Shown in pieces: positions 8,390-33,662 of a DNA stretch of 64,000 nucleotides (position 1 is its first letter; each line of letters opens with the position of its first letter). This DNA comes from an uncultured Lachnospiraceae bacterium (GTDB taxonomy: Bacteria > Bacillota > Clostridia > Lachnospirales > Lachnospiraceae). The DNA is taken from assembly GCA_947165025.1 (NCBI GenBank), contig CAMUYQ010000007.1, forward strand, positions 1 to 64,000. Direction: 5' to 3'. The translations under genes and the position numbers were made by a program. The notes under the pieces were generated by a model. It worked only from the letters and a program-made list of their open reading frames with translations. It made no database searches and was not told the DNA's origin.

Positions 8390-8519
8390 GAACGTGCAGA
8401 CCAAGCTTCTCAAAACGCGCTCCCGCTCCTGTTCAGCCGCAGCTGACGCTAGGCTCGTGAAAAACCTCACCAAGCGCAGGCGACTTCACAAGGTTTTGAT
8501 AAGTTTGGTCCGCACGTTC
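8390..8519 (-). repeat. Hairpin element A (shared core, unique arms)
   Basis: A 130-base imperfect palindrome. The outer arms (8390-8408 and 8501-8519) are inverted copies of each other, matching at 17 of 19 positions (GAACGTGCAGACCAAGCTT on the left), and are unique to this site. Inside is the shared core: CGCTCCCGCTCCTGTTC near the left arm and CTTCACAAGGTTTT near the right, around an inner stem of type 1 (GACGCTAGGCTCG ... CCTCACCAAGCGC). It lies 21 bases upstream of the metH ATG. Strand is given relative to the flanking genes. Together with element B it fills the 333-base gap between the two met genes; nothing else is seen in that gap. Confidence 0.8.
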
Positions 8520-8545
8520 TCCCTTGTGTAATGGCCTGTTACATA

Positions 8546-8685
8546 GGGCGGCTATATACAGTACTCTTCTCAAAACACGCTCTCGCTCCTGTTCGGTGCG
8601 TAGCGGTACATAAGTCGGTACAAAACACCGACTAAGTACCGACGCATTCACAAGGTTTTTCGAAGAATACTGTATATAGCCGCCC
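8546..8685 (-). repeat. Hairpin element B (shared core, unique arms)
   Basis: A 140-base palindrome in tandem with element A. The outer arms GGGCGGCTATATACAGTA (from 8546) and its perfect reverse complement (ending 8685) are locus-specific. The core CGCTCTCGCTCCTGTTC ... TTCACAAGGTTTT is shared with the other elements. The inner stem is of type 2: GGTACATAAGTCGG pairing with CCGACTAAGTACC. The element starts 16 bases after the stop codon of the activation-domain gene. Confidence 0.8.
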
Positions 8686-8701
8686 GTCCCGGTAACCAGG
8701 A

Positions 8702-9298
8702 TTATCCCTCGACCCCCACGAATGCAGTCACGGATTTACTCGGCGACATGAGGAATCCCTCATCGAGTGTGATGGAAAGGTTCTTCCTGGCGTTTGTCAC
8801 CGACAGCACCTCCGGCTGTATCGCAAGAGTCAGATCCCCGAAGCCGGGCGAAAATCGCGGGCGCAGCTTATCCGGATACGTGTCGCAGAACATGTTGCAC
8901 ATGGTCTCAACGCGTTCGGCACCGATAGCCTGCATAAAGAGCGCCCTTACCGGATCGAGCTTCGTGTATTTTTTGATGAGCCTGTCAATACCGGGGCCTA
9001 CGGTCGCCGCAAGCACAACAACTTCCCTGCATCCGGCAAGGTTTCCCGCAAGAGACCGGCTCGTTATCTTCATAAGGTCAAGATCGATCTCTCCAGACTC
9101 TTCATCGATCGAAACAGCCGGAAGCACGCAGTAGGAGACGCGGTACGAAAATGACGCAAGCTGTCTGCTCTCCTTAATGCAATCTTCCATGAAAGCGAGC
9201 ATCTTCCCGTCATCACACCCTGCGCACATCGCGTAGCGCAGTATCTCCCTCCGGTTGAACTCCGGCTCATCAAATGATCTTATACCCTGTGGTGTCAT
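8702..9298 (-). CDS. Methionine synthase reactivation domain, separate polypeptide
   Basis: A 198-residue protein resembling the C-terminal activation domain of MetH, which binds AdoMet and re-methylates cobalamin when it is oxidised to the inactive Co(II) form. The block RPRFSPGFGDLTLAIQPEVL matches the AdoMet-binding part of that domain (RxxxGY-like), and MQAIGAERVETMCNMFC is the preceding helix. It sits between metF and metH in one direction. The ATG at 9298 overlaps the metF stop as ATGA, so translation is probably coupled. Since metH here lacks this domain, the two proteins probably act in trans. Such stand-alone activation proteins are known in Clostridia. Confidence 0.85.
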   Translation of the reverse strand: MTPQGIRSFDEPEFNRREILRYAMCAGCDDGKMLAFMEDCIKESRQLASFSYRVSYCVLPAVSIDEESGEIDLDLMKITSRSLAGNLAGCREVVVLAATVGPGIDRLIKKYTKLDPVRALFMQAIGAERVETMCNMFCDTYPDKLRPRFSPGFGDLTLAIQPEVLSVTNARKNLSITLDEGFLMSPSKSVTAFVGVEG

Positions 9299-10173
9299 TT
9301 TTTAACTATGTCCGAAAGATTGTCAAGAATGGCCTTTGCGACGTTAGGCTTGTTCATCGAATAAACGTGGACGAACCTGATCCCGTTTGCATAAAGGTCT
9401 ATGATCTGATCGGTCGCATATGCGATACCAGCCTGTGACATGGCCGCCGGATCATCTCCGAAGGCATCTACAAGGCTCTTGAAACGCTGCGGCATGAACG
9501 AGCCGGACAGCTTGATCGCACGCGCCACCTGATTGGCATTCGTGATCGGCATTATACCCGGGATGATCGGACAGGTTATGCCTGCTTCCCTGATCTTGTA
9601 CAGGAAATTGTAGAACAGATTGTTGTCGAAGAACATCTGCGTCGTGAGAAAATCAGCACCCGCATCGACCTTCTCTTTCAGATGCAAAATGTCCTCTTTC
9701 TGATTGACGCTCTCGGGGTGTACTTCGGGATAGCACGCCGCCCCTATGCAAAAATCATTCCCGCTCTCTTTGATGTCGCGGATAAGCTCAACTGCATGAT
9801 GATATGCCCAGCCGCTCCTGTCGGCATTTTCAAGTTCCGCAGGAATATCGCCACGAAGCGCCATGACATTTTCGATCCCCGCAGCCTTCATGTCGGCAAT
9901 ACGTTCCTTTACCGTCTCCTTTGTGGAGCTGACGCATGTCAGATGCGCGAGAACGGGTACAGCATATGACTTCTCAATATCCTTTGCGATATCAAGCGTA
10001 TATTTGCTCGTTCCTCCGCCGGCTCCGTAAGTTACGGACATAAAAGCAGGAGAAAGGGCGGCGATGCTCTCCGCCGCCTTTTGCACACTGTCGTATTTAT
10101 CACTTGTCTTGGGCGGGAACACCTCAAAGGACATCCTGTTCCCGTCCTGTTTAAATATCTCTGATATCTTCAT
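9295..10173 (-). CDS. metF: 5,10-methylenetetrahydrofolate reductase
   Basis: A 292-residue flavoprotein that reduces methylene-THF to methyl-THF, the methyl donor for MetH. Family signatures include RMSFEVFPPKT at the N-terminus, SVTYGAGGG (residues about 45-55), ALRGDIP and TTQMFFDN. The length is usual for bacterial MetF. The ATG at 10173 is preceded by AGGAAG at 7 bases. It lies 22 bases downstream of the phosphoribosyltransferase and overlaps the activation-domain gene by 4 bases, so metF, activation domain and metH form a methyl-THF to methionine operon. Confidence 0.95.
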   Translation of the reverse strand: MKISEIFKQDGNRMSFEVFPPKTSDKYDSVQKAAESIAALSPAFMSVTYGAGGGTSKYTLDIAKDIEKSYAVPVLAHLTCVSSTKETVKERIADMKAAGIENVMALRGDIPAELENADRSGWAYHHAVELIRDIKESGNDFCIGAACYPEVHPESVNQKEDILHLKEKVDAGADFLTTQMFFDNNLFYNFLYKIREAGITCPIIPGIMPITNANQVARAIKLSGSFMPQRFKSLVDAFGDDPAAMSQAGIAYATDQIIDLYANGIRFVHVYSMNKPNVAKAILDNLSDIVKK

Positions 10174-10195
10174 TAGTGTTCTTCCTAATAAATTC

Positions 10196-10837
10196 TCAGT
10201 TCACCGATGAATATCCGAAACCGTTACAGATGGCATCAACGGGAATGTTTGAATGGCAGAGCGGACACTCTTCAGGTCTGAAGCTCTTGTAATCGGGAAG
10301 ATCTCTTACCGAGTAGAGTGATCTGATCGGGATATCCTCTATCTGTGTTGCAAGTGAGAATATTGCAGATATTCCGATCGGTGTTCCGCCGTAAAACCTG
10401 ATCGAACCGATAGCGCTCTTAAGTGTTCCACCGGTCGTTGCCGTATCGATGAGCACGAGCACTCTCTTGCCGTGGATCATGTGCTTGTTGTTTTCCCTGA
10501 ACATCATCTGTCCGCTCACGTTGTACTCGGGACTCGTGATATACATCGTCTTATGACGGTTTGCAGATATCATTCCGGCCTTTGTGAGCTTGTTTGCAAG
10601 ATACGAACCGATGACTTCGGTACCGTTTAAGCACAGGATCGTGTCGATGACATCCGATACGAGATAGTTCTCGGCCAGTTCCTCCCCTGTTGCCCTTGCC
10701 TCACGCTGTCTGGACTTCATGTCCGTCAGATCCATGTAGTAGTTAACATGGGTGTTCGGCGTGATGAAGTGTCCCGGAACATAACGGAGCACAACATCCT
10801 TGTTCTTGGCATGATCGATCTTCTTATAATCTTGCAT
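10196..10837 (-). CDS. Orotate phosphoribosyltransferase-like protein
   Basis: A 213-residue type I phosphoribosyltransferase. The PRPP loop is VLVLIDTATTGGTLKSAI (about residues 125-142): two acidic or substitute residues, then TTGGT. The N-terminal hood is longer than in classical PyrE, and the C-terminus ends in CPLCHSNIPVDA, which has a CxxC pair that could bind a metal. Proteins of this type in Lachnospiraceae are usually called orotate phosphoribosyltransferase, but the substrate could be another base. It heads the metF-metH operon, which is unexpected for a pyrimidine gene; folate or one-carbon linkage is only a guess. AGGGGG precedes the ATG by 7 bases. Confidence 0.7.
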   Translation of the reverse strand: MQDYKKIDHAKNKDVVLRYVPGHFITPNTHVNYYMDLTDMKSRQREARATGEELAENYLVSDVIDTILCLNGTEVIGSYLANKLTKAGMISANRHKTMYITSPEYNVSGQMMFRENNKHMIHGKRVLVLIDTATTGGTLKSAIGSIRFYGGTPIGISAIFSLATQIEDIPIRSLYSVRDLPDYKSFRPEECPLCHSNIPVDAICNGFGYSSVN

Positions 10838-10863
10838 GATTTTCCCCCTTATTATCAGCGGCT

Positions 10864-10917
10864 GTATGCCACCTTTATCAAAATATAGTTCAGTATAACA
10901 CCTTTACCACAATATAG
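10864..10917. repeat. 25-base direct repeat, period 29, upstream of the phosphoribosyltransferase gene
   Basis: Units at 10864-10888 and 10893-10917 agree at about 21 of 25 positions (GTAT..CACCTTTA.CA.AATATAG). They overlap the likely -10/-35 area of the minus-strand promoter and could be a duplicated operator. Confidence 0.6.
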
Positions 10918-10921
10918 GCAA
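10892..10921 (-). promoter_or_regulatory. Promoter for the phosphoribosyltransferase-met operon
   Basis: TTGCCT (10916-10921) and TATACT (10892-10897) on the minus strand with an 18-base spacer. The 25-base direct repeats overlap it. Confidence 0.5.
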
Positions 10922-10940
10922 CAAATACCGTTCCTTTATG

Positions 10941-10969
10941 TTGAAAAAAAGCCCCCCTTCCTATATAAT
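10941..10969 (+). promoter_or_regulatory. Promoter for the membrane-protein operon
   Basis: TTGAAA (10941-10946) and TATAAT (10964-10969) separated by exactly 17 bases, 21 bases before the ATG at 10991. Confidence 0.75.
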
Positions 10970-10990
10970 CGTAAAGGTCAGGGAGGCGTC

Positions 10991-12607
10991 ATGGAATTCT
11001 TGAAAAAACACAAAAAAACGATATCGACGGTTGCCGGTCTTCTCGTATTTCTCATCGGAGTCGCTGCCGTCATCTTCTACATATTTAAACGCCAGCGGGC
11101 CGAGTTTAACGCAGACTTTACCGACACGCTGCTCTGGGCCAACGCGAGCGTTACGAGCGGTCATTTCTACAATCCCGATTACTGGTACGCATATTTCCTT
11201 CCCTTCTCGGGAATACCTCTGATGATCCCGATCGTTGCCACGCTCGGACTTACATACTTTGCACACCAGCTCGGAATGGCAGCATTTGTCATCATATTTG
11301 CGATCGCACTTTTATGCTTCATGAGAGCCCTCGACAGATCGTGGAGCGACAGTTTCGCGCTTTCCGGCCTTGTCATGATATTCATGCTCGCATCACAGAT
11401 AACGCGCATGATCTTCTACGGACACATAATCCACTACAGTCTTGCGATAGTGTTCTTGTGCTTTGCATTCTCACTCCTTCGAAGATCATCCCTTTGGGAT
11501 GCTTCGGCCAAAAAAGGGCGTACATTTACGATAGTGATCGCGGTATTCTGCATGCTGTGCTGTACGAACGGAGTTGCAACTCTTCTTCTGTTCTTCGTAC
11601 CGTTTGCAGGCTCACTCATTTTCGAACGCTATCTTGATAAGAAGCCCATTTCATTTGAAGGTGATAAGCCGCTCATAAAGGATGTTGCGACTATACTTGC
11701 CGGAGGCCTTTGCGGTGTCATCATAAAGATACTGTTCTTCTCAAGCAGCGAATACGAGGATTCTATCACGGCACTTCTTCCTTCAAACGGATGGGTCTGG
11801 AAGCAGAGCCCGTTCCTTCTTGAATGGATCAAGGTACTGACGGATGATTCAAACGGTGATGTACTGATGCAGAGCTTTGACGGGATCAGGATTCTTACAA
11901 TGTATTTCCTGGCGCTCGTTGTTCTTGTCATTCCCGCACTTGCGCTCATCTCATATAAGAAGATCAAGAACCGCATGGTAAGACTTCTTGTGCTGTTCTA
12001 CTGGCTCATGTTCGCAACAACGATGATAACTTATTCCGTAAGCTACGCGCTCGTTTCAAACTGGAGACTTGCGGGACTTATGTGCTGTGCCATCATGGTA
12101 AGCCTTCTCTATACACACGAGATGCTCTCGACAAAGCAGTTCGTACGCTGGGTAGTTCTTCTTACTCCGGTGTATGCGATCTGCGCACTTGTCTGTCTTC
12201 TTACCGTAAAGAACATCCCTTCGGCACTTGATGCCAATCCCAATGACCAGCTTATCGGCATCCTTAAGGACAACGGCCTTACACGCGGATATGCAACATC
12301 ATTCTGGAACGGTACAAATGCCATAACGGTCCTTAGCGACGGACAGATAACCGTCAGTCCCATCACGGTCCACACTGACGGCTCATACGAAGTCAGACAC
12401 TACCAGTCGGAGCCTTCGGAATACGAAGATGTTCCCGGCGTTGATAAATACTTTGTCATCGTAGACGGTGAGGACATGGAGTATGCCGCTGAAACACTCG
12501 GACAGGGCAGGACCGATGAGATCAAATATCAGGACGGCCTGTATATTTGGGTATATGACAGGAACATATTTGAAAACTTCGAGCCCGTATTTACACCCGG
12601 AGAATAA
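10991..12607 (+). CDS. Large polytopic membrane protein, GT-C-like
   Basis: A 538-residue protein with about ten or eleven hydrophobic segments up to about residue 410 and a soluble C-terminal domain of about 120 residues. After the first membrane segment there is an acidic outer loop (FNADFTDTLLWANASV) like the first loop of GT-C glycosyltransferases, which use lipid-linked sugars at the outer face of the membrane. No named family is recognised with certainty. The ATG follows GGGAGG. It is first in an operon with another polytopic protein and a Sel1-like protein, which suggests an envelope glycan or lipid modification unit; that is inference from layout only. Confidence 0.6.
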   Translation: MEFLKKHKKTISTVAGLLVFLIGVAAVIFYIFKRQRAEFNADFTDTLLWANASVTSGHFYNPDYWYAYFLPFSGIPLMIPIVATLGLTYFAHQLGMAAFVIIFAIALLCFMRALDRSWSDSFALSGLVMIFMLASQITRMIFYGHIIHYSLAIVFLCFAFSLLRRSSLWDASAKKGRTFTIVIAVFCMLCCTNGVATLLLFFVPFAGSLIFERYLDKKPISFEGDKPLIKDVATILAGGLCGVIIKILFFSSSEYEDSITALLPSNGWVWKQSPFLLEWIKVLTDDSNGDVLMQSFDGIRILTMYFLALVVLVIPALALISYKKIKNRMVRLLVLFYWLMFATTMITYSVSYALVSNWRLAGLMCCAIMVSLLYTHEMLSTKQFVRWVVLLTPVYAICALVCLLTVKNIPSALDANPNDQLIGILKDNGLTRGYATSFWNGTNAITVLSDGQITVSPITVHTDGSYEVRHYQSEPSEYEDVPGVDKYFVIVDGEDMEYAAETLGQGRTDEIKYQDGLYIWVYDRNIFENFEPVFTPGE

Positions 12608-12621
12608 GAAAGGACGCCGCT

Positions 12622-14367
12622 TTGAAAAAGAGCACTTTCTGTATAAGCATCATACTGACCGTTCTTTGTGCACTCCTTCTTCTTAATTCGCGCGCACTGT
12701 TTGAACCCTATCTTATCGCCTTACTCTTTGCAGTGTGGTGCCTTTTTACCATCCGCAACGAACAATTCGACAAGAAGAGCAAAGCGTATCGTATCATAAC
12801 CGCAGCCTCTGTTATCGGTGCCGCTTTCATCGCACTTGCCAATTATTCTCTCTGGCTTCATCCCGATCTGCCGGATGTACGGGGAGTGTTATTCGTTCGC
12901 ATATATAAGCTCGCGCTCCTTATGATCATATTTGCCGGCTCATTCACCAGCTGCAACAGTATACTTAAGTTCATCTGCTTAAGTTCAAAAAGCTTCAGTT
13001 TTGAAAAGGTAAAAGAGCGAGACCGCGCGCTGCGATTTTTCCTCGTTCCGTTTGTCATCATAACTGCAGTCTACGTCACGATATGGCTGTGCTGCTATTA
13101 TCCGGGACTCATGTCTCTTGACTCGGTTGACCAGCTTACCCAGATCTTTACCGGTAAATATTCAAACCACCAGCCGTTCTATCATACGATGATACTGTCA
13201 TTCTTTGTGAGGATCGGACTGGCACTGTTTAATGACATGAACGCTGCCGTTGCGACATACACTTTGTTCCAGATCATTTTCATGTCGGCAACGTTTTCGT
13301 TTATCGTATACAACATGGCAAAGCTCCAAATGCCTCTTTGGACAGAGATACTTTCATCCGTATGGTTTGCCGTGATGCCTTTTCACATCATGTTCTCGTT
13401 CACCGTATGGAAGGATGTTTACTTCGGTGCATTCACGGCTCTTATGATCGTATTTCTCATAAGGCTGATGCACGGCATCGGACACAGATGGATAAACCTT
13501 GTCTGCTTTGCACTTACAGGCCCGTTCATCTGCCTGATCAGGAGTAACGGGCTGTTCTCATATATCTTCGTTCTTCTTGCCGTCCTTCTTCTTGCAAGAG
13601 GGCACAAAGAGATCATTTTCATAATGCTCGCAACGGTTGCGGCAAGCTTTGTAATGAAGCACACCGTACTCTCCAATCTCGGCGTCACACAGCCCGATAC
13701 CGTTGAATCACTCAGTATTCCCCTTCAGCAGGTTGCAAGGGTGATCGCCGACGACGGATATATGGAAGAGTCCGACATTGAACTTCTGTCAAACATAATC
13801 GACGTCAGGGCGATAAAGGACAACTACGATCCCGACATTTCCGACCCCATCAAGAACATGATCAGGGATTTCGGAAACGAAGATTTCCTGTCGGAGAACA
13901 TGGGTGAATACGGCATGCTCTATCTTCGCACACTCATTCATAATCCGGTCAGATACGTTGAAGCATGGGTTGACAGCACGTGCGGTTACTGGAACAGCGG
14001 ATACAATTACTGGGTATGGTTCTGGGATGTTGAGGACAATGAATACGGCGTTGTCAGGACCGTTTCATCCGAAGGTGTCCTCCGGATGATGGATGAATAT
14101 CTGTGGCTGTTTTACAACAACCCCGTCTTCAGGATATTTACTGCGATCGGACTGTATGTCTGGATCATACTTATCGCTTTTGCAAAGTCCGTATCAACAT
14201 CAAACAAGTGCGGGATCATCGTGACCGTACCGATACTTGCGATACTGTTATCGCTCCTGATCTCGTCACCTGTATACGCCGAGTTCAGATACATGTACGC
14301 ACTGTTCACATCGCTCCCGATACTACTGTCGATCACGTTTTTAAACACTACGGAGGATAAACCTTGA
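12622..14367 (+). CDS. DUF6020-like multi-pass membrane protein
   Basis: A 581-residue protein with about twelve hydrophobic segments. The stretches YYPGLMSLDSVDQ and YSNHQPFYHTMIL (about residues 155-195) are the kind of conserved lines found in clostridial membrane proteins of the DUF6020 group, thought to be GT-C-type glycosyltransferases. A soluble loop of about 150 residues lies before the last membrane segments. The start is TTG at 12622, supported by AAAGGA 7 bases upstream; no in-frame ATG nearby has such a site. The gene is 14 bases after the previous one and overlaps the next by 4 bases. Function is not demonstrated. Confidence 0.6.
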   Translation: MKKSTFCISIILTVLCALLLLNSRALFEPYLIALLFAVWCLFTIRNEQFDKKSKAYRIITAASVIGAAFIALANYSLWLHPDLPDVRGVLFVRIYKLALLMIIFAGSFTSCNSILKFICLSSKSFSFEKVKERDRALRFFLVPFVIITAVYVTIWLCCYYPGLMSLDSVDQLTQIFTGKYSNHQPFYHTMILSFFVRIGLALFNDMNAAVATYTLFQIIFMSATFSFIVYNMAKLQMPLWTEILSSVWFAVMPFHIMFSFTVWKDVYFGAFTALMIVFLIRLMHGIGHRWINLVCFALTGPFICLIRSNGLFSYIFVLLAVLLLARGHKEIIFIMLATVAASFVMKHTVLSNLGVTQPDTVESLSIPLQQVARVIADDGYMEESDIELLSNIIDVRAIKDNYDPDISDPIKNMIRDFGNEDFLSENMGEYGMLYLRTLIHNPVRYVEAWVDSTCGYWNSGYNYWVWFWDVEDNEYGVVRTVSSEGVLRMMDEYLWLFYNNPVFRIFTAIGLYVWIILIAFAKSVSTSNKCGIIVTVPILAILLSLLISSPVYAEFRYMYALFTSLPILLSITFLNTTEDKP

Positions 14368-15320
14368 ACATCACATGCAGCGGTTCATACGTCAAAGACC
14401 AGGAAACTCTTAACGCCATATTCGACAAGTACGGCTACACTTCCCCTTCCGCGGAACGTGAGCTCATCTGTCTTGCGCACACCGGAAACACAGCTGCGCT
14501 AAAATCATATGCGGACCTTCTTTTCTACCACAAGATAAACTGCAGGGACAACTACAAAAAGGCGTTCCCGCTCTATCTTCAGGCAGCCGATGTAACTTTT
14601 TATGATAACGGTGCACACTGCGGCGGAAACGGAACTCCTCATGCTTATTTTTCGATCGGGTATTATCTGACAAACTACAAATGCGAATCCGTACTGAAGA
14701 ACTGTTCAACGATAGATGAGATAGAAAAACTTCCCAAAGAGACGCGGCTTCAGCTGGCTCTTGATTTTGCACTCGCGTCGCTTGATTACTGTGAATCTCC
14801 GGCTGCGATCAACCTGATAGGAAGGATAGTCAGCGAGGATCCTTCACTTGTATCAAGGCTTGAGTCAGGCAAAAATGCAAAGGATTATTTCGAAGAAGCT
14901 GCAGAGGGCGGTTACGTTTACGCATGTAACAACCTTGCGGCAAAGGAAGCGGACCTGATCGTTAACGGTGTTGATGACATCGATTCACATATCAATTCGT
15001 TCATTCACTATCTGACGATCTCAGCTGACAGGCTTGAGCCTTACGCCGCAAACCGCCTCGGACTGTTTTACATGATCGGTGAGATCCGCTCTTCTGACGG
15101 CAGGACAGCTGTTTTCCGTGACTACATAAACATTTCCTTTGCCAAGAAATATTTCCAGAAAGCGATCGTATACCCCGACTCAAACAGCGCGTGGGCATAC
15201 TTCAACCTTATCAAGTATTTCCATAAGGATTACGATACGAACATCGATCTTCTGAATGAACACATGGAATGCATCAAGGAACTGAATCCTCAAGTGTATG
15301 ATGTGGCGATAGAACTGTAG
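14364..15320 (+). CDS. Sel1/TPR-like repeat protein
   Basis: A 318-residue soluble protein, mostly helical. Pieces such as YKKAFPLYLQAAD, AKDYFEEAAEGGYVYACNNLA and AKKYFQKAIVYPDSNSAWAYFNL have the spacing of Sel1-like (short TPR-related) repeats, which act as protein-binding scaffolds. There is no signal peptide. It starts with TTG at 14364, overlapping the TGA of the previous gene, with GGAGG 9 bases before it, so translation is probably coupled. As last gene of the operon it may assist the two membrane proteins. Two stem-loops follow the stop. Confidence 0.65.
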   Translation: MNITCSGSYVKDQETLNAIFDKYGYTSPSAERELICLAHTGNTAALKSYADLLFYHKINCRDNYKKAFPLYLQAADVTFYDNGAHCGGNGTPHAYFSIGYYLTNYKCESVLKNCSTIDEIEKLPKETRLQLALDFALASLDYCESPAAINLIGRIVSEDPSLVSRLESGKNAKDYFEEAAEGGYVYACNNLAAKEADLIVNGVDDIDSHINSFIHYLTISADRLEPYAANRLGLFYMIGEIRSSDGRTAVFRDYINISFAKKYFQKAIVYPDSNSAWAYFNLIKYFHKDYDTNIDLLNEHMECIKELNPQVYDVAIEL

Positions 15321-15332
15321 CGGGGATTTTGG

Positions 15333-15373
15333 TGCAGGAAGGTCCTCCCGGCTCGCGGGAGCTCCTCCCTGCA
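15333..15373. other. GC-rich stem-loop after the Sel1-like gene
   Basis: TGCAGG (15333-15338) pairs with CCTGCA (15368-15373) and an inner CTCCCG pairs with CGGGAG (15345-15350, 15356-15361). No T-run follows; the true terminator is 40 bases downstream. Confidence 0.5.
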
Positions 15374-15410
15374 TGTGCCCCTCTTAATATATTTAAACCC
15401 TCTGTGTACC

Positions 15411-15443
15411 AAAGATACGGGCCCCTTTTCCCGTATCTTTTTT
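15411..15443. terminator. Bidirectional intrinsic terminator
   Basis: An 11-base perfect stem (AAAGATACGGG / CCCGTATCTTT) with an 8-base loop and T or A runs on both sides. It serves the plus-strand operon ending at 15320 and the minus-strand small membrane protein ending at 15459. Confidence 0.85.
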
Positions 15444-15458
15444 GTGGTTTTTTACTCG

Positions 15459-15782
15459 TCAGATCCTGAAACCGTAGTACTTGTACTGCTCGATCTTCTC
15501 CTGGTAGTCGGCCAGCTTTATAAGCAGGAGCAGGATCGCAAATGCAGCTCCCATGAACACTACGACTCCCGTCTTTATCATTTCCGGCACGGCCATATGA
15601 AATACGAGCGCACATACGAATGCAAGCGCTGCGATCTCACACAGTCTCATCAGAAGGTCTACCGAATCCTGTTTGATCTTCGGAATCCTTGCCGGTGCAA
15701 ATACAATGTGTATGAATGTTTTCTTAACCCCTTTGACGACCTTTCTGCGTCTTCTGATCCTTCTTCTCTGCCCCTCGCTCAT
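15459..15782 (-). CDS. Small membrane protein of unknown function
   Basis: A 107-residue protein. The first 20 residues are very basic (MSEGQRRRIRRRRKVVKGVK), followed by two hydrophobic segments at about residues 48-65 and 70-88 and a short C-terminal tail (EKIEQYKYYGFRI). No family is recognised. GGGGAA precedes the ATG. It is 11 bases downstream of the TetR regulator on the same strand, so it is probably the gene this regulator controls together with itself. Proteins in this arrangement can be part of efflux or stress responses, but nothing in the sequence proves it. Confidence 0.65.
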   Translation of the reverse strand: MSEGQRRRIRRRRKVVKGVKKTFIHIVFAPARIPKIKQDSVDLLMRLCEIAALAFVCALVFHMAVPEMIKTGVVVFMGAAFAILLLLIKLADYQEKIEQYKYYGFRI

Positions 15783-15793
15783 AGCAGTTCCCC

Positions 15794-16345: not shown

Positions 16346-16366
16346 TTTTAACCTTCCCGCCTTGCA

Positions 16367-16464
16367 TAACGCTGTTATGTATCATTGTTATATTTTATTG
16401 TTATGTATCGTTGTTACATATCTACGTTACACATCTTTGTTACATAACAAGGTTATTTTAACGT
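16367..16464. repeat. Seven tandem 13-base repeats with a palindrome at one end (probable operator)
   Basis: From 16374 to 16464 the sequence is seven units of exactly 13 bases, each starting GTTA (for example GTTATGTATCATT, GTTATGTATCGTT, GTTACATATCTAC, GTTACACATCTTT). The unit next to the gene completes a perfect palindrome CATAAC-GCT-GTTATG. The array fills the region just upstream of the TetR gene. A regular array suggests cooperative binding of the TetR protein or another regulator along one face that turns about 1.25 helical turns per unit. Confidence 0.8.
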
Positions 16465-16503
16465 GTAAATAATATTATGTCAACAACTTTCCGAAATTTT
16501 TTC

Positions 16504-16537
16504 CACAAAAAAACACAGGGATCAGATCCCTGTGTTT
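16504..16537 (-). terminator. Intrinsic terminator after ugd
   Basis: On the minus strand AAACACAGGG and CCCTGTGTTT form a 10-base stem followed by seven Ts. It starts about 20 bases after the ugd stop and probably works in both directions. Confidence 0.85.
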
Positions 16538-16557
16538 ACAGCATCATTAATATGTAC

Positions 16558-26630: not shown

Positions 26631-26642
26631 GCTTCTATCTCC

Positions 26643-27716
26643 TTACGCATCGTTCATCTTCACAAGCTTTGCGGCCTGGTCGGCTGCGATGCATGCGTCT
26701 ATGATCTCCTGTATATCTCCGTTCATTACCTTGTCGAGCTTATAGAGCGTCAGCCCGATCCTGTGGTCCGTGACTCTTCCCTGCGGGAAGTTGTATGTCC
26801 TGATCTTCTCCGAACGGTCGCCGGTTCCGATCTGGCTCTTTCTGAGTTCTGCTTCGGCATCGTGAGCCTTCTGCTGCTCTATATCATACAACTTTGCACG
26901 AAGAAGTGCGAATGCTTTGGCTTTGTTCTGCAGCTGTGATTTTTCCGTCTGGGAATAGATCACGATACCCGTCGGATAATGGGTCAGCCTGACCGCCGAG
27001 TCCGTTGTGTTGACGCACTGTCCGCCGTTTCCTGATGCTCTCATGACGTCGATCCTGATGTCCTTTTCGTCAATGACGATGTCAACGTCTTCGGCTTCGG
27101 GCATAACGGCAACGGATATCGTTGATGTATGTATGCGGCCTCCCGATTCGGTCTCGGGAACTCGCTGCACGCGGTGCACGCCGCTTTCGTACTTCATGAC
27201 CGAATATGCTCCCTGGCCCGTAATCATGAACGTTACCGACTTCATTCCGCCGATGCCGATCTCGTCGACTTCCATCGTCTCGACCTTCCAGCCGCGGCCC
27301 TCGGCATAGTGCACGTACATGCGGTATATCTCGGCCGCAAAGAGTGCAGCCTCGTCTCCGCCCGCGCCGGCTCTTATCTCGACGATGACGTTCTTGTCGT
27401 CATTCGGATCCTTCGGGAGAAGAAGTATCTTCAGTTTTTCTTCAAGCTCCTCGACTCTCTTTTTGGCGTCGGCAAGTTCTTCCTTGAGCATCTCGCGCAT
27501 TTCGGCATCGGACTCGGCCTCGAGCATCTCAAGGCTGTCGTCGATGTCCTGCTTCTTCTGCTTGTATTCGCTGTACGCCTCGACGATCGGGGCGAGGTCG
27601 CTCTGCTCCTTCATAAGCTTTTTGAACCGCACCTGGTCGTCGGCCGTGCCCGGCTCGCCGAGCTCGCTCATGAGCTCTTCGTACCTTACGAGGAGGTCTT
27701 CAAGTCTGTCGAACAT
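26643..27716 (-). CDS. prfA: Peptide chain release factor 1
   Basis: A 357-residue class I release factor that ends translation at UAA and UAG. The universal GGQ motif is in [11 protein letters not shown] (about residues 230-240), whose Gln triggers peptidyl-tRNA hydrolysis and is methylated by PrmC, encoded just upstream. The N-terminal [15 protein letters not shown] and the length (about 355-360) fit RF1 rather than RF2, which would carry a programmed frameshift. AAAGGA precedes the ATG by 7 bases. It is separated from prmC by 196 bases filled mainly by hairpin element C. Confidence 0.96.
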
Positions 27717-27746
27717 ATGTAGATCCTTTCTGTTGGTTTCGAGTTC

Positions 27747-27881
27747 GGGGTGCGTTAAGGTATTTCCTCGAAAACGCGCTCCCGCTCCTGTTCAGGCGCA
27801 ACGGTACATAAGTCGTCCAAAAACGCCGACTAAGTACCGGCCCCTTCACAAGGTTTTCTCGGAAACACCTTAGCGCGCCCC
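27747..27881 (-). repeat. Hairpin element C (shared core, unique arms)
   Basis: A 135-base palindrome between prmC and prfA. The left arm GGGGTGCGTTAAGGTATTTCC (given here as 27747-27767, key part GTTAAGGTATTTCC) is matched by an inverted right arm ending at 27881 with a few transitions (GCGCTAAGGTGTTTCC in reverse complement). The core has CGCTCCCGCTCCTGTTC and CTTCACAAGGTTTT; the inner stem is type 2 (GGTACATAAGTCG ... CGACTAAGTACC), nearly the same as in element B. It begins 31 bases after the prmC stop. Confidence 0.8.
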
Positions 27882-27912
27882 TACATTGTGAATAACACTC
27901 GTATTACTGTTA

Positions 27913-28773
27913 TTATCTTATTATTCCCTTAATTACCCGGTCATTTCCCGCATAATCTTTGATAATTTCAATGTTTACGAATCCGGCGTCGGAGAGAATG
28001 CGCGCAACGTCCGCTGCCTGGTCGCAGCCGATCTCGAGGAAGATCATGCCGCCGCGGTTTAAGTGCATGGGCGCCTGTTCGGCGATCCGTCTGTAGAAGT
28101 CAAGGCCGTCATCTCCACCGTCGAGTGCGATCCTCGGATCGTGATCGCGGACCTCGGGTGCAAGTGTTTCGATATCCGAAGCCCTGATATAGGGCGGATT
28201 GGAAATGATAACGTCGAATGAATGATTTTCGCCCGGGAGGGCATCGTACAGGTCGCCTGCAAGAAACTGCACCGTGCCGCCGTTAAGGCCGTCCTGCTCA
28301 CTGAGCATCTCGAGGTTTGAGTTTGCGATGGCAAGCGCATCTTCCGAAATGTCGACTCCGATGCCGCGGCAGTTGTTCTTGTAGTGCATGAGCGAGAGCA
28401 GAAGGCAGCCGCTTCCCGTGCAAAGATCGAGTATGTCGTTGCCGTCCATAGTGTATCTCATCGCTTCTTCGACAAGGCACTCGCTGTCCTGCCGCGGAAT
28501 AAGGACCTTATCGCTTACGCGAAAATCAATTCCCATGAATCCGCATTTTCCGGTCAGGTGCTGCAGCGGGATATGCTGTGATCTTTTCGTAAGTATCTCT
28601 TCGTAGCGCGCAGCATCGCAGTCACTGACAATCGTTTCCGGATGCGCGTAAAGCGTGTTCGCATCATGTCCCGTTATAAATTCCAAAAGCAGCCTTGCAT
28701 CCAAGGCTGCTTCAGATATACCGGCAGCAGACAGTACTTCCGTGCCGTGTCTGTATGTTTCGCTATAATTCAT
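27913..28773 (-). CDS. prmC: Release factor glutamine methyltransferase
   Basis: A 286-residue AdoMet-dependent enzyme that methylates the GGQ glutamine of release factors. The AdoMet loop is ILDLCTGSGCLLLS (about 113-126) and the catalytic NPPY motif is IISNPPYIRASD (about 188-199). The N-terminal helical domain that grips the release factor is present, so the length is normal. It overlaps the DUF1385 gene by 11 bases and precedes prfA, the usual functional pairing. Confidence 0.95.
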   Translation of the reverse strand: MNYSETYRHGTEVLSAAGISEAALDARLLLEFITGHDANTLYAHPETIVSDCDAARYEEILTKRSQHIPLQHLTGKCGFMGIDFRVSDKVLIPRQDSECLVEEAMRYTMDGNDILDLCTGSGCLLLSLMHYKNNCRGIGVDISEDALAIANSNLEMLSEQDGLNGGTVQFLAGDLYDALPGENHSFDVIISNPPYIRASDIETLAPEVRDHDPRIALDGGDDGLDFYRRIAEQAPMHLNRGGMIFLEIGCDQAADVARILSDAGFVNIEIIKDYAGNDRVIKGIIR

Positions 28774-29713
28774 CCGTTCCGGTACTTAAGTACTCCTTCC
28801 AGTCAAATACGGCATCAACGGCGGCAATGCCGACTTCGATCATAGTATCGTCGGGTTCTCTCGTTGTCAGGCGCTGAAGCCACATTCCGGGTGCGGACAG
28901 TATCCTGACGAATATGTTGTTTGTACGGCCGGCGAGCCTGATGATCTCATATGATACAGAGGCGATGACGGGGATCAGAAGTATCCTGATCGCAACTCTT
29001 GCCACCGGCTCTTCAACGCGAATGAATATGAAAAGGATGACACTTAAGAACACTACAAAGAACAAAAAGCTCGTTCCGCAGCGCTTATGCTCGCGCGATG
29101 ATCTTCTGACGTTCTCGACAGTCAGCGGATTTCCGTTTTCAATGCAGTTGATGCATTTATGCTCGGCTCCGTGATACATGAACACGCGGCGGATGTCCTT
29201 CATGCACGATATCAGAATGATATACATCACAAAGATAAACACACGAAGAACGCCTTCAAGTATTGCGATCGCAGTGTCACTGACGATGACCTTTTCAAGG
29301 AGCCTCGAAAGATAATAAGGAAGCAGGATGAACAGGCCGACCGCAAATGCGATCGATATGATGACCGTGATCGTCGACAGTACCTTTTCGGCATGATCTT
29401 TGAAAATACGGTCCAGGATCTTGTCTTTTTTGTGCGTATCCTGCTCTTCCTCATAGAACGAGGCCGAGTAGTTGAGCGTTCGTATACCGAGGATCAGGGA
29501 GTCGATAAAGTTGATGACACCGCGTATAAACGGCACCTGCGTCAGTGTTTTTGAGCGCGAAAAGGACTCGTACTCCTCGACCGTCACATCGATGTCTCCT
29601 TCCGGAGTTCGAATGGCGACCGAATACCTGTCCTTGTTCTTCATCATGATCCCTTCGAGGACGGCCTGTCCGCCGATCCCGGAATAACGGGCTTTTTTCT
29701 TCTTTCTCTTCAT
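28763..29713 (-). CDS. DUF1385 family membrane protein
   Basis: A 316-residue protein of the DUF1385 family, common between rpmE and prmC in Clostridia. The N-terminal line YSGIGGQAVLEGIMMK is diagnostic. Several hydrophobic segments follow (about 85-105, 125-150, 205-235), with YHGAEHKCINCIENG between them (conserved His and Cys). Function is not established for the family, although it is sometimes listed as a metal-dependent enzyme. The ATG at 29713 is preferred: an upstream GTG at 29746 lies inside the rpmE terminator stem and is rejected. Confidence 0.88.
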   Translation of the reverse strand: MKRKKKKARYSGIGGQAVLEGIMMKNKDRYSVAIRTPEGDIDVTVEEYESFSRSKTLTQVPFIRGVINFIDSLILGIRTLNYSASFYEEEQDTHKKDKILDRIFKDHAEKVLSTITVIISIAFAVGLFILLPYYLSRLLEKVIVSDTAIAILEGVLRVFIFVMYIILISCMKDIRRVFMYHGAEHKCINCIENGNPLTVENVRRSSREHKRCGTSFLFFVVFLSVILFIFIRVEEPVARVAIRILLIPVIASVSYEIIRLAGRTNNIFVRILSAPGMWLQRLTTREPDDTMIEVGIAAVDAVFDWKEYLSTGTDEL

Positions 29714-29732
29714 ATCCGTAAATATTAAAGAA

Positions 29733-29748
29733 GAGTGCCGAAGCACTC
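29733..29748 (-). terminator. UUCG-loop terminator or attenuator after rpmE
   Basis: On the minus strand GAGTGC-TTCG-GCACTC followed by TTCTTT, 12 bases after the rpmE stop. It may end part of the rpmE transcripts and lower expression of the DUF1385-prmC-prfA genes. Confidence 0.65.
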
Positions 29749-29760
29749 ATCTTACTGTTC

Positions 29761-29961
29761 TTATTTAACGCCGTACTTCTTGTTGAACTTATCGATACGT
29801 CCGTCAGTTCTTGCGCCCTTCTGCTGTCCTGTGTAGAACGAATGGCACTTTGAACAGATCTCCACGTGAATGTCTTCCTTCGTCGAACCTGTCACGAACG
29901 TATTGCCGCAGTTACAGGTTACGGTTGCCTGATAATATGCGGGATGTATTCCTTCCTTCAT
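29761..29961 (-). CDS. rpmE: 50S ribosomal protein L31
   Basis: A 66-residue ribosomal protein. Four zinc-binding cysteines are present (CNCG and CSKC, residues 16, 18, 37 and 40), so this is the zinc-containing form rather than the zinc-free paralogue made under zinc starvation. The start [11 protein letters not shown] is typical of L31. GAGGTG precedes the ATG. It heads the minus-strand cluster that continues to prfA and perhaps further, with its own strong promoter. Confidence 0.97.
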
Positions 29962-30033
29962 CTTGATTCACCTCACTAAATATTTCGTTTCATAATTAAT
30001 GTGTTAATCATATGCTGACAAACAGCAAATGCA

Positions 30034-30062
30034 ATTATAACGTAAGCGCCGCGATTGTGCAA
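30034..30062 (-). promoter_or_regulatory. Promoter for rpmE
   Basis: TTGCAC (30057-30062) and TATAAT (30034-30039) on the minus strand with a 17-base spacer, followed by a leader of about 65 bases. Confidence 0.8.
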
Positions 30063-30081
30063 GCACAAATTACAAATTAAA

Positions 30082-30214
30082 CGGGAGCGGCAAAACTATT
30101 CTTCGAAAACACGCTTTCGCTCCTGTTCCGGCGTAGCAGACGCTAGACTCGAAAAAACCTCGTCAAGCGCTGACGCCTCCACAAGGTTTTCTCAGAACAG
30201 TTTTGCCGCTCCCG
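30082..30214 (-). repeat. Hairpin element D (shared core, unique arms)
   Basis: A 133-base palindrome. Left arm CGGGAGCGGCAAAACTATTC and a right arm that is its inverted copy with one change (ending 30214). Core CGCTTTCGCTCCTGTTC ... CTCCACAAGGTTTT; inner stem type 1 (GACGCTAGACTCG ... CCTCGTCAAGCGC). It starts 10 bases after the stop of the HD-GYP gene and ends 20 bases before the rpmE -35 box. Confidence 0.8.
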
Positions 30215-30224
30215 ATTCAAATAA

Positions 30225-31490
30225 TCAGGGTTCGTCTCCGACGAAAACCTCGCCGCTGTGGATCATGTCGATCATGATCTGCGCGATCTTCGGGTCAAAC
30301 TGCGTCCCTTTATTGTTCTCGAGTTCCTGAAGGATGATGTCTTTGTCAAGGTGGTTGCGGTATACCCTGTCGGAGTTCATGGCGTCCATTGCGTCCGCAA
30401 CACCGATGATGCGGGCAACGAGAGGGATGTCCTCTCCGGCAAGCCCTTTCATGTATCCTTTGCCGTCAAATCTCTCGTGATGGTAGAGTGCCCCGTCCTT
30501 GATATCCGCTATCGCGGTAAAATCGCGGAGCATCTTTTCACCGTTCGTGGTGTGGGTCTTCATAATGTCGAATTCACTTTCGGTAAGCTTGCCCGGCTTG
30601 TTGAGGATATTGCCGGGGATACCGAGCTTTCCGCAGTCGTGCATGAGACCGATGTATCCGATGTCCCTGATACGCTCTTCGTCCATTCCGAGCTTCTCGG
30701 CTATCTTCTGTGAATAATATGAAACCCTGGCACTGTGGCCTTTCGTGTATCTGTCCTTGGTATCGATGAAGTTTGCAAACGTACTCATCGTCTGTGAGAT
30801 AACGTCATTGAGCTTCTGTGCATTCTTTCTGTAGTTCTCGTCCCTTATCAGATAAAGAACATATGCGACAACCGATGTTGCCCATGCAACGAACATTACC
30901 ATTATTACCCAGAAGAGCGGATAGGCCGTGATAGGCTTGTATCTCTTTCCGGTAAACACAGCATCGGTAAAGTTCATCAGCTCCGTCGATATCATGACAG
31001 CTCCGAATGTGGCGCTGTCGCCGGACCTTATAGTCTCTATACGCTCATCCGGGGTGAATGTGATCGTCGAAGCATTCTTATCGTACTCCCATTCACCGTT
31101 CCAATAACTGTCTATCTTTATGTTCTTCTCGGGAACCGTGATCACAACACTCCAGTCAACTATGTCATAGCCGCTGTCGTTGATGACGGTATTGTCATAC
31201 TGTGCCCCGTACGTCTGCATCGGCGTATTGGGATCATTCTGCCAGTGCTTGGAAATATCGACCGTGTATCTGTACTCATCCCCCGCACGTACCGAACCGT
31301 CCACAGCCGCAGTAGTTGTTGCGACTTCACTCTGTGCATCCGTGATGGTCATGTGATAGGAAAACGGATTGTTCAGATCATATCTCACCTTGCTCCACAG
31401 TCCCAGCATGCCCAGGGCGAGCAGGATGAATATCATTATGAGAATGGCTCTTCCGCCGCGTTTGTGACCTGTATGTGGCTTGTTTGGCAT
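30225..31490 (-). CDS. Membrane HD-GYP protein with a CBM2-like extracellular domain
   Basis: A 421-residue protein: a basic N-terminus, membrane segment (about 14-33), outer domain (about 40-185), second membrane segment (about 190-212) and cytoplasmic HD-GYP domain (about 235-415). The outer domain line WSVVITVPEKNIKIDSYWNG, then ITFTPDE and IRSGDSATFGAVM, resembles the strand pattern of family 2 carbohydrate-binding modules (WNG, then a Gly-Ser-FG strand). The HD part has MHDCGKLGIP, but the GYP signature reads HHERFDGKGYMKGL, with Met for Pro. It should be a c-di-GMP phosphodiesterase whose activity may respond to a polysaccharide outside the cell; the sensor role is inference. GGAGG precedes the ATG. 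Confidence 0.82.
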   Translation of the reverse strand: MPNKPHTGHKRGGRAILIMIFILLALGMLGLWSKVRYDLNNPFSYHMTITDAQSEVATTTAAVDGSVRAGDEYRYTVDISKHWQNDPNTPMQTYGAQYDNTVINDSGYDIVDWSVVITVPEKNIKIDSYWNGEWEYDKNASTITFTPDERIETIRSGDSATFGAVMISTELMNFTDAVFTGKRYKPITAYPLFWVIMVMFVAWATSVVAYVLYLIRDENYRKNAQKLNDVISQTMSTFANFIDTKDRYTKGHSARVSYYSQKIAEKLGMDEERIRDIGYIGLMHDCGKLGIPGNILNKPGKLTESEFDIMKTHTTNGEKMLRDFTAIADIKDGALYHHERFDGKGYMKGLAGEDIPLVARIIGVADAMDAMNSDRVYRNHLDKDIILQELENNKGTQFDPKIAQIMIDMIHSGEVFVGDEP

Positions 31491-31526
31491 ATATTCCTCC
31501 GAACGATTTTGAACAACGTAACAGAT

Positions 31527-31555
31527 ATTATATCGGTATTAACTCATTAAAACAA
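31527..31555 (-). promoter_or_regulatory. Promoter for the CBM2-like HD-GYP gene
   Basis: TTGTTT (31550-31555) and TATAAT (31527-31532) on the minus strand with a 17-base spacer, 36 bases before the ATG. Confidence 0.7.
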
Positions 31556-31614
31556 TACTATTTTGTTCCAGAATAATATATAATATTTCACAAAGTCAAA
31601 AAAGGAGAATCATC

Positions 31615-33465
31615 ATGGAAAGATTCAAAACATTTGTAAAAGGCGCTTTCTCATATCCGAGGCAGCTCCTGTCAACTCATCCTGCAACGATCGTGAGCAT
31701 TATCGCGGCGTCGGTCCTCTTTTCGATCTACTCTTTTATCGAGATTGACTACACCAGATCAAAGAACATCGAAAAGCCGCTCGACATACTGCTTCATATA
31801 TGCCTTGCGATACTGTTCTTTGCTGTATTTTCACTTTGCCTCGAGAGCATTCGACCGAGATGGTCAAAAATCGTAAAGGCCGTGATTCTGGCTGTTTTCG
31901 GACTGATCTCGCTGTTCATGAGCTTTATCCTTTCCGATTACATCAAAGGATCGCATTCGGTTCTTAGCGGGAAGATGATGATGATCCGCGAGCGTGCGGG
32001 AATCTATACGATCTTTCTTCATATAGCGGGACTTCTGGCTCTTGCACTGCTGCTGGCTCTCTATTTTTCCTACAGTCATGACGTGCACCAGCGTTTCAAC
32101 GACCACATCATGAACGCAAATGCGAAGATGTTCTTTACGGCGATCATTTACGGCGTGATCCAGATGGGCGTGCTCTTCCTGACTATCATCGTATCGGTCC
32201 TTCTGTATGATGACGCGTTTGAATACATGTTCCCGATTCTCATACTGATCAACGGACTGTTCTATGTTCCGGCCGTGATATGTGCATATATCCGCCAGAA
32301 TGAGAAGGCAAACATGTTCATGCAGGTACTTGTCCGCTACGTCATGCTCATAAACATACTTATCGCATATGCGATCATCTACATCTATATACTGAAGCTG
32401 ATCATCACGATGGACGTTCCGTCCAACTCGGTATTTGCGATACTGACGGCACTCTTTGTTGTTTCGATGTACGTCACCTATATGTGTACAACATTTGAGA
32501 ACAAAGGATTCCTCCAGAAGTTTGCGTACAACGCGCCGCTCATTTTTGCGCCGTTCATCCTTATGCAGTCCTACACGGTGTTCGTCCGTATCGGACAGTA
32601 CGGTCTCACACCCATGCGTTACTTCGGTATCGCGTTCATCGTATTTGAGATCACATATATCGTCTACTACACGATATGCCTGAAGAAGGAAAAAGAGATC
32701 ATGGGCCGCAACATTCTTCTTGTCATGGGAGTGTTTGTGATCATCGCGATCTTCATGCCCGGCGTAAGCGCAAGATCGCTGTCAACGACACTGGCACGCC
32801 GAGCTCTTTCATCCTATATCGAAAAATCAAATGCCGGGGTTCAGATGTCCGACCGCGAATACGTCCGGGCCAATGCGGCATACGGATTCCTTCGCGGAGA
32901 TGATTTTGGATCGGGAAGGCTCCAGCGGTACTTCCCGGGCTTTGACGAGGATGCGATCGCCGGCCTTAAGGAAAAGGCCATTGCTTCTTCAAAGATCCTC
33001 AATAAAGAAGAGCGCGTAAACAGCAAGGATTCCGGCTATCCGATGTCAAGCTGGTATTCCGCGGATCTGTTCAGCGACTATTCCAAGGACGGCGTGATCG
33101 ATGTTTCGGACTATAAGAAAATGATATACGTATACGTTACCGAAACCGGTAACGTCTCGGACAGTGCCGTCGATACGACAAAGCTTTCGATAAACGTTGA
33201 TGAAACCGGAGAGTCTGACGGAGAGTCTGACAAAGAGATGATGAGCGTTGATCTGTCGAAGTTCATCAGTGAATACAACAGACTGTCCGAAGATAAGGAG
33301 ACCGGGGTCATCGACTATGATGAATTCCAGAACAGGGTACATCAGATGGGCGTTATCGAAGTAAACGAAAATGCCCGCCTGTATATCACAGATGCGGACA
33401 TTACAAGGAATGCAAAGCTCGAAACGGTACACGTGGATATTCACGGGTATTTGCTGATGAAATAA
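31615..33465 (+). CDS. DUF4153-like membrane protein
   Basis: A 616-residue protein with about eleven membrane segments in residues 25-385, followed by a soluble C-terminal part of about 220 residues. The N-terminal segments (PATIVSIIAASVLFSIYSF, LLHICLAILFFAVFSLCLE) follow the pattern of DUF4153 proteins, whose function is not known. The last membrane segment (about 368-385) and the line ARSLSTTLARRALSSYIEKS lead into a region with DYKKMIYVYV and YDEFQNRVHQM. AAAGGAG precedes the ATG. It is divergent from the HD-GYP gene and convergent with rho; hairpin element E fills the space to rho. Confidence 0.65.
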   Translation: MERFKTFVKGAFSYPRQLLSTHPATIVSIIAASVLFSIYSFIEIDYTRSKNIEKPLDILLHICLAILFFAVFSLCLESIRPRWSKIVKAVILAVFGLISLFMSFILSDYIKGSHSVLSGKMMMIRERAGIYTIFLHIAGLLALALLLALYFSYSHDVHQRFNDHIMNANAKMFFTAIIYGVIQMGVLFLTIIVSVLLYDDAFEYMFPILILINGLFYVPAVICAYIRQNEKANMFMQVLVRYVMLINILIAYAIIYIYILKLIITMDVPSNSVFAILTALFVVSMYVTYMCTTFENKGFLQKFAYNAPLIFAPFILMQSYTVFVRIGQYGLTPMRYFGIAFIVFEITYIVYYTICLKKEKEIMGRNILLVMGVFVIIAIFMPGVSARSLSTTLARRALSSYIEKSNAGVQMSDREYVRANAAYGFLRGDDFGSGRLQRYFPGFDEDAIAGLKEKAIASSKILNKEERVNSKDSGYPMSSWYSADLFSDYSKDGVIDVSDYKKMIYVYVTETGNVSDSAVDTTKLSINVDETGESDGESDKEMMSVDLSKFISEYNRLSEDKETGVIDYDEFQNRVHQMGVIEVNENARLYITDADITRNAKLETVHVDIHGYLLMK

Positions 33466-33470
33466 TTTTC

Positions 33471-33662
33471 TAAAGAGTTCCTGCATACACAATTTGCACA
33501 AAAAACAGGGGGGATACAAAAAGAGTTCCTGTATACACATTTGCAACAAAAAGTATTGGAGAGCGTTGTTACTTGACGAGGTTTTTTCGAGTCTAGTAAC
33601 GTGACGCTCGGAAACAAGCGGAAGCGCCTTTTTGTGCAAATTGTGTATGCAGGAACTCTTTA
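33471..33662 (+). repeat. Hairpin element E (shared core, long perfect arms, one arm duplicated)
   Basis: A 192-base structure filling the gap between two convergent stop codons. The outer arms 33471-33504 and 33629-33662 are a perfect 34-base inverted repeat (start TAAAGAGTTCCTGCATACAC). A second, diverged direct copy of the left arm lies at 33518-33551. The inner part is the family core in the opposite orientation to elements A-D: CTTGACGAGG-TTTTTTCG-AGTCTAG is the reverse complement of the type 1 inner stem of element D over 22 bases. Relative to the upstream gene (DUF4153) its orientation is the same as in the other copies. Confidence 0.8.

Follow-up and report, generated by a model that had tools for sequence, protein, structure and literature searches.

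A family of intergenic hairpins in Lachnospiraceae with a nearly fixed, invertible core and locus-specific matching arms

The DNA analysed here, called the window below, is a stretch of 64,000 nucleotides from an uncultured Lachnospiraceae bacterium (positions 1 to 64,000 of contig CAMUYQ010000007.1, assembly GCA_947165025.1), and it carries five long hairpins, E1 to E5, in which a shared core is enclosed by two matching outer arms. The original prediction, made from the sequence alone, had placed five such hairpins in the window; all five lie at the predicted positions and each folds as a long hairpin. Their parts were delimited by sequence and fold, by an inverted-repeat search and by matches to R1, a covariance model built on 26 sequences. 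E1, on the minus strand, consists of an outer arm at 8390-8408 (the 3′ arm on the element strand), a conserved core at 8409-8500 with a short helix P2, a mini-hairpin of the GNRA type and an inner stem of type A (R1 match 8396-8510), and the other outer arm at 8501-8519, both arms being assigned by sequence and fold. E2 (minus strand) has an outer arm with P2 at 8546-8576, a core with an inner stem of type B at 8577-8654 (R1 match 8556-8672) and the other arm with P2 at 8655-8685, the arms forming inverted repeat I3 (31 nt, 90% complementary). E3 (minus strand) has arms at 27747-27767 and 27861-27881, again assigned by sequence and fold, around a core of inner stem type B at 27768-27860 (R1 match 27755-27870), and E4 (minus strand) has arms with P2 at 30079-30110 and 30186-30217 (inverted repeat I4, 32 nt, 88%) around a core of inner stem type A at 30111-30185 (R1 match 30090-30203). 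In E5, on the plus strand, the outermost left arm at 33471-33504 is a perfect complement of the right arm at 33629-33662 (inverted repeat I1, 34 nt, 34/34); a second, diverged copy of the left arm at 33520-33553 (inverted repeat I2, 85% complementary) adjoins the core at 33554-33628, which belongs to a second subfamily (AAAAG...CTTTT; R1 match 33536-33648).

Among the 17 pairs returned by the inverted-repeat search of the window, the arms of E5, E2 and E4 rank top; those of E1 and E3 are more mismatched, are missing from this list and become visible by fold. Overlapping exact inverted 16-mers at most 260 nt apart occur 23 times in the window, all inside E2, E4 and E5; 100 dinucleotide shuffles give 0.02 on average and never more than 2. 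Four of the five hairpins start 5 to 31 bases after a stop codon, as had been claimed (E2 to E5, at 16, 31, 7 and 5 bases). No run of T follows the outer stem in any of the five copies as judged by eye only, with no terminator scan, so that the stem-then-T-run pattern of an intrinsic terminator is lacking there.

The family is much larger than the window. At E ≤ 0.1, R1 matches 48 places in the source genome (G000), a few of them truncated and the weakest with an E-value of 0.0135; only 22 of these are independent, because all 26 training copies, including the five window elements, are among the 48. This result upholds the claim that the hairpins share core blocks. In a pattern search that tolerated two mismatches at most, the same genome had 47 matches, some of them coding or due to chance, and 8 to the reversed pattern. 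The search with the core was extended to relatives, as the original prediction had proposed. R1 (E ≤ 0.01) matches 23 of 36 sampled relatives in the genus with 1 to 24 matches each, not every match having been fetched and two of the 23 being weak (G009, E-value 0.003; G012, E-value 0.005); in 24 genomes taken from the other families of the order it has no match. R2, a broader model made from the relatives' copies, was searched in 295 genomes of the order from 130 genera. Within the taxonomic family 47 further genomes were listed, of which 28 have R2 matches; counting the own genus, the matches span 13 genera. Outside the family, none of the genomes among the 295 searched has a match (the kinship of 246 matchless genomes is not shown). 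With at most 12 candidates scored per genome, the R2 copy numbers are lower bounds. An exact DNA pattern scan of genome contigs, which is strict and may omit near relatives, returned one record, an uncultured Lachnospiraceae metagenome-assembled genome. At the gathering thresholds of Rfam 15, neither the window nor 57.5 kb of DNA from 19 wider-family loci gives a match, and three matches obtained with 321 bases at a permissive threshold, to two microRNA families and one plastid family, are at chance level and were rejected. No description of the hairpins turned up in the literature searched, and they apparently make up a large family of folded elements, so far undescribed and, among the genomes sampled, confined to one bacterial family.

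The element strand folds into an outer helix of about 19-34 bp, the short P2 (AAAAC/GTTTT, in E5 AAAAG/CTTTT), the mini-hairpin AGCGNNAGCG, a CTTGT/ACAGG-type helix and the inner stem of type A or B. RNAalifold predicts 32 pairs for the 26 cores, 23 of which have double-sided changes, and 23 of 40 pairs do at one orthologous locus; covariation of the kind expected for a structured RNA is thus found both across copies and across species. The loop of the mini-hairpin fits G-N-N-A in 110 of 112 untruncated copies of the genus (exceptions L162 and L081; two further genus copies are truncated and lie outside this count), and its third base is a purine in all 110 fitting copies, although the search pattern fixed only the first G and the last A. 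The loops in the genus are GAAA (29), GGGA (26), GCAA (26), GAGA (22), GCGA (4) and GGAA (3). The pattern recurs in 23 of 25 wider-family copies, all with a purine as third base, and in all 37 matches of genome G316. The loop therefore follows the GNRA rule of RNA, with counts that are non-independent owing to relatedness and model-guided retrieval: the models that retrieved the copies had themselves been trained on copies, a bias towards typical members and GNRA loops. Tandem G.A mismatches were seen in the inner stem (by eye only). In L128 (2042-2180) and in L267 (genome G008) a longer unrelated stretch takes the place of the inner stem or lies within it, so the core tolerates insertions at its inner tip.

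The genomic placement was examined for 114 genus copies, left from 116 after removal of a duplicate and of a copy located at a contig end; gene orientations are from a simple ORF caller, and some ORFs overlap elements. Co-directional genes flank 85 copies, convergent genes 16 and divergent genes 11, and two are without an upstream gene. The co-directional copies divide into 42 in sense and 43 in antisense, with 22 and 10 in G000 alone. It had been claimed that the core keeps the same orientation relative to the upstream gene; this describes the five window copies, but does not extend to the genome (32 of 47 G000 copies) or to the genus (58 of 112 copies with an upstream gene). Several sites recur between species. 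From the flanking proteins we take them to be gyrB-gyrA, pgk-tpiA, metF-metH (the site of E1 and E2 in the window) and scpA-scpB, and further, on the same basis, thyA next to a gene with a metallo-beta-lactamase fold, and butyrate kinase-phosphate butyryltransferase; in another genus, what is presumably a fabH-fabK-fabD operon carries copies. In genomes that have no more than six copies, 43 copies were examined and 27 of them share their site with another genome; so do 13 of 24 in G023 and 12 of 47 in G000. The shares in the genomes with few copies and in G023 imply that many copies are old.

Mismatches in the arms give a hint as to which strand is under constraint. In the 114 genus copies, the element strand has 68 G.U versus 35 A.C mismatches, whereas the gene strand of the co-directional copies has 37 versus 36. 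After addition of 60 wider-family copies (174 in total; duplicates, copies near locus ends and the group of miniature inverted-repeat transposable elements, MITEs, being dropped), the counts are 113 versus 64 on the element strand (p = 0.0003) and 70 versus 61 on the gene strand of the co-directional copies (p = 0.48). The fold of the element's own strand seems to matter whichever way the operon runs. A function as mRNA in the sense strand was rejected in view of the even split of orientations and the lacking G.U excess on the gene strand. A single-stranded DNA element recognizable by a replication-strand bias was also rejected, with about 15 leading and 21 lagging copies and hence no clear bias on the G316 chromosome (hand count over 20 GC-skew stretches, a few copies near skew changes being uncertain).

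The arms had been described as without similarity between loci. They are indeed locus-specific, but not wholly dissimilar: when 32 copies of the main genus subfamily are aligned on the core, the arms have a roughly constant length and register and a weak consensus, and likewise in G316 (by eye). Within one genome, several pairs of copies with 97-100% identical cores have unrelated, well-paired arms, while others have related ones (L033/L034, L058/L059). The mean arm identity goes from about 0.49-0.53 to 0.58 as cores reach identity, against a shuffled background of 0.46. Between species, arms can be followed at single sites. At pgk-tpiA in 10 species, the 23 of 40 pairs with double changes noted above include the arms, and G026/G031 as well as G014/G018 have the same arms at shared loci with single compensatory changes (by eye). 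Genomes with one R1 copy (G014, G018, G024) still show paired changes. In G316, 15 copies (L350, L370-L374, L386-L394) sit in a repeat of about 230 bp that has long terminal inverted repeats starting GGGGCTGTAAAAAATC. Their arms are near-identical, which indicates that the arms move along when copies move as a block. Among these young copies, an arm change is paired in three (L372, L374, L389) and unpaired in four (L386, L391, L392, L394; by eye), so paired changes are common even where divergence is low. Stop codons, a possible test of where the arms come from, lie in or near an arm in 50 listed cases; the few orthologous C-termini compared are too diverged for this purpose.

The cores change in a different manner. 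A comparison of the gyrB-gyrA site in G000, G011 and G023 gives 97-98% identity for the core and 60-77% for the arms; the adjoining gyrase coding DNA has 85-89% identity to G000. The core thus evolves far more slowly than the DNA around it, so that arms can diverge to saturation with cores hardly altered, and similar cores do not call for recent spread. In some species cores are also inverted in place. Eleven of 18 loci shared between genomes include a pair with opposite core orientation, and in two of these loci an inversion in place is visible. The G023 element at pgk-tpiA, inner arms included, aligns after inversion to that of G019 over 126 bases with a score of 104 versus 17 uninverted, and the inverted G011 element at gyrB-gyrA aligns to that of G008 with 97 versus 27. 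At scpA-scpB, G031 and G004 have an arm in common around a flipped core, and G000 has other arms there (by eye). Arms are occasionally duplicated with a short spacer, the left arm in E5 (33471-33553, one diverged and one perfect copy) and the right arm in L016 (by eye), as expected from a strand-switch event. In the fab operon of G266, two copies whose cores are about 97% identical are distinguished by entire helical blocks, which are paired in each. Template switching between inverted repeats has been described with arm homogenisation, spacer inversion and multi-base compensatory change as its signatures (PMC8604942, PMC8794818). Patterns of all three kinds occur here; those papers cover reconstructed histories of RNA genes and coding genes of S. 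cerevisiae, whereas the present case is a dispersed bacterial repeat family. Template switching is likely the source of the variation, judging from these patterns, with selection deciding what persists.

Taken together, we consider it probable that the hairpins are an old family of elements of about 130-190 nt whose arms are the element's own outer helix, kept matched by structural constraint together with template switching. The outer helix would be constrained in its pairing and not in its sequence. Two forces may act on it. One is structural, a constraint on how the element's own strand folds; the other is switching of DNA polymerase from one arm to the other as template, which would copy one arm onto the other, flip the core and now and then duplicate an arm, as in E5. 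With less confidence, we suppose that the relevant folded form is RNA, which could act between cistrons or through a factor binding the core; a folded RNA is the likeliest cellular role that the sequences suggest.

Several observations weigh against this explanation. Taken separately, neither the antisense set (40 G.U versus 25 A.C, p = 0.08) nor the 60 wider-family copies (45 versus 29, p = 0.08) show a significant G.U excess on the element strand. A structure working in mRNA should not tolerate both orientations, and a fold tied to the element strand fits poorly with a plain mRNA element. Some outer arm pairs at pgk-tpiA are broken in up to three of the 10 species. Selection alone explains the single compensatory substitutions in G026/G031 and G014/G018, and template switching was not directly observed. 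At sites common to G000 and G023, the similarity of the arms does not exceed the background level (mean score 7.1 versus 6.9), so that old shared elements and independent insertions would look alike there. For 111 copies (three truncated or odd ones left out), the nearest core is found only in the own genome in 57 cases, only at another site in another genome in 35, only at the same site elsewhere in 14, and tied in 5. This likeness within genomes indicates that gene conversion or re-insertion of cores also acts, which weakens the argument from core conservation. At the thyA locus, moreover, G033 and G004 share arms around cores that differ in the inner stem; conversion or replacement of cores within inherited arms is the simplest account and weakens an inference of purifying selection. 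Finally, 35 of the 47 G000 copies are at sites not found shared, and recent spread in this genome is possible.

The hairpins could instead be a selfish mobile repeat whose fold serves movement only, with cores alike by recent spread or conversion and the intercistronic position reflecting mere tolerance; we regard this as possible, but rather unlikely. It would accommodate match numbers from 0 to 48 within the genus, the cores that are often specific to a genome at shared sites, the neutral orientation, the unshared G000 sites and the repeat-borne copies in G316. However, most copies in G023 and in the genomes with few copies are at shared sites, and paired changes appear even in genomes with a single R1 copy. 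Mobilisation by a Y1 tyrosine transposase (RAYT; PF01797) was rejected: the domain is present in 18 of 37 genus genomes, but there is none in G000 (48 matches) or G023 (24 matches), the two genomes of the genus richest in copies. MITEs with conserved terminal inverted repeats were likewise rejected for G000 and G023, where arms are locus-specific with a weak consensus; shared terminal inverted repeats were found only for the 15 G316 copies inside the larger repeat.

Known repeat families resemble the hairpins in part. REP and REPIN sequences are extragenic palindromic repeats of 20-40 bp with a GTAG or CGTC tag, the GTAG ones being linked to RAYT transposases (PMC3116915, PMC3733652). They too are extragenic palindromes in many copies, REPs lying mainly between co-directional and convergent genes, but the present unit has 130-190 nt and ends without a fixed sequence; membership is excluded by size alone, GTAG and CGTC tags not having been scanned for. 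Bacterial stem-loop repeat families, ERIC among them, were built by sequence clustering (PMC2267715) and are similar in being repeated non-coding stem-loops with structures predictable on both strands, but the available text describes no fixed core with locus-specific arms. The unusual feature of what is in outline an ordinary hairpin family is the combination of a nearly fixed, invertible core with locus-specific matching arms. The bcr1-type repeats of the Bacillus cereus group are intergenic, about 155 bp long and of conserved secondary structure; they would differ from the hairpins in having conserved ends and a short target duplication.

An intercistronic mRNA element in the operon sense, serving processing, stability or protection of 3′ ends, is unlikely as it stands. 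The 85 copies between co-directional genes would suit it, and several copies stop just upstream of an apparent ribosome-binding site (by eye), but the equal numbers of sense and antisense copies, the inversion in place and the gene strand without G.U excess do not. The original proposal that selection on an mRNA structure keeps the arms paired is accordingly retained in part: a constraint on pairing is supported, as seen at pgk-tpiA, and a structure in mRNA sense is not. We also considered a much stronger version of the explanation favoured here, namely a family-wide RNA element conserved by the host, with an outer helix rewritten as matched blocks by the replication machinery, that is, a self-repairing, two-state intercistronic element with an invertible core in the gyrB-gyrA, pgk-tpiA and fabH-fabK-fabD operons; this we hold to be decidedly doubtful.

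The original prediction had offered, as its other option, that the arms are made on insertion. In this account, which we consider very unlikely, a core could insert at any place and about 20 bases of the flank would be turned into an inverted duplication by snap-back synthesis, so that every copy acquires arms of its own. Near-identical cores with unrelated paired arms, arm identity that barely rises with core identity, and the block-wise difference of the G266 pair would be expected from it. Nevertheless, the closest empty site speaks against it. At pgk-tpiA, the flanks of G035 and G024 are near-identical and G024 has 144 additional bases, and G035 contains neither arm. A 3-base CGT is present on both sides of the G024 insert relative to G035 (one site only), and G035 may represent a precise loss between the CGT repeats, because G014, G018 and G024 share the element; whether it is a loss or the original site, the arms are not visible in the flank, to judge by this alignment. 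Further, arms are conserved per locus in close species and are of about the same length, with a weak consensus, some near-identical cores (L033/L034, L058/L059) have related arms, and the 15 repeat-borne G316 copies keep theirs. Single arms, apparently remnants of deleted copies, were seen by eye at two sites, scpA-scpB of G026 and the thyA locus of G006. With inherited arms, paired changes and such remnants, the proposed inverted duplication of flanking DNA is not sustained.

That the core inserted into palindromes already present, for example terminators, is most improbable: this would fit the tight placement after stop codons, the use of the same sites across species and the unrelated hairpins in element-free gaps (metF-metH in G006; pgk-tpiA in G011, G016 and G027), but no palindrome matching the arms was seen in the element-free gaps inspected by eye (metF-metH, scpA-scpB, gyrB-gyrA, pgk-tpiA and the L159 locus, with a few gaps not covered), and the single arms in G026 and G006 look like remnants.

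A nearly fixed middle with freely changing yet matching arms is a natural experiment on hairpin pairing. The question is whether long stems stay paired by slow compensation through G.U or by one-step template switching. With many copies per genome, at shared and unshared loci, and with arms, cores and inversions each open to separate scoring, the two models become directly testable. Since the core at gyrB-gyrA is more conserved between species than gyrase coding DNA, the comparison suggests that the family may have an unrecognised function.

Some minor observations concern the same intergenic gaps. In L035, L059/L134, L137 and L141, two oppositely oriented elements overlap or lie tens of bases apart within one gap. 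The pgk-tpiA gap of L278 (G020) contains tandem AT-rich palindromes and a small hairpin containing GAGCGGGAGCG, possibly a degenerate relative of the family. A second family of intergenic palindromes, about GCARNAAGGAGGGACCCACGNAGTGGGARGATTCCTTRYTGC (L210, L261, L264), is present at scpA-scpB and pgk-tpiA of other species, and a palindrome of this type also lies inside the inner-stem tip of an element in G021 (L168/L170).

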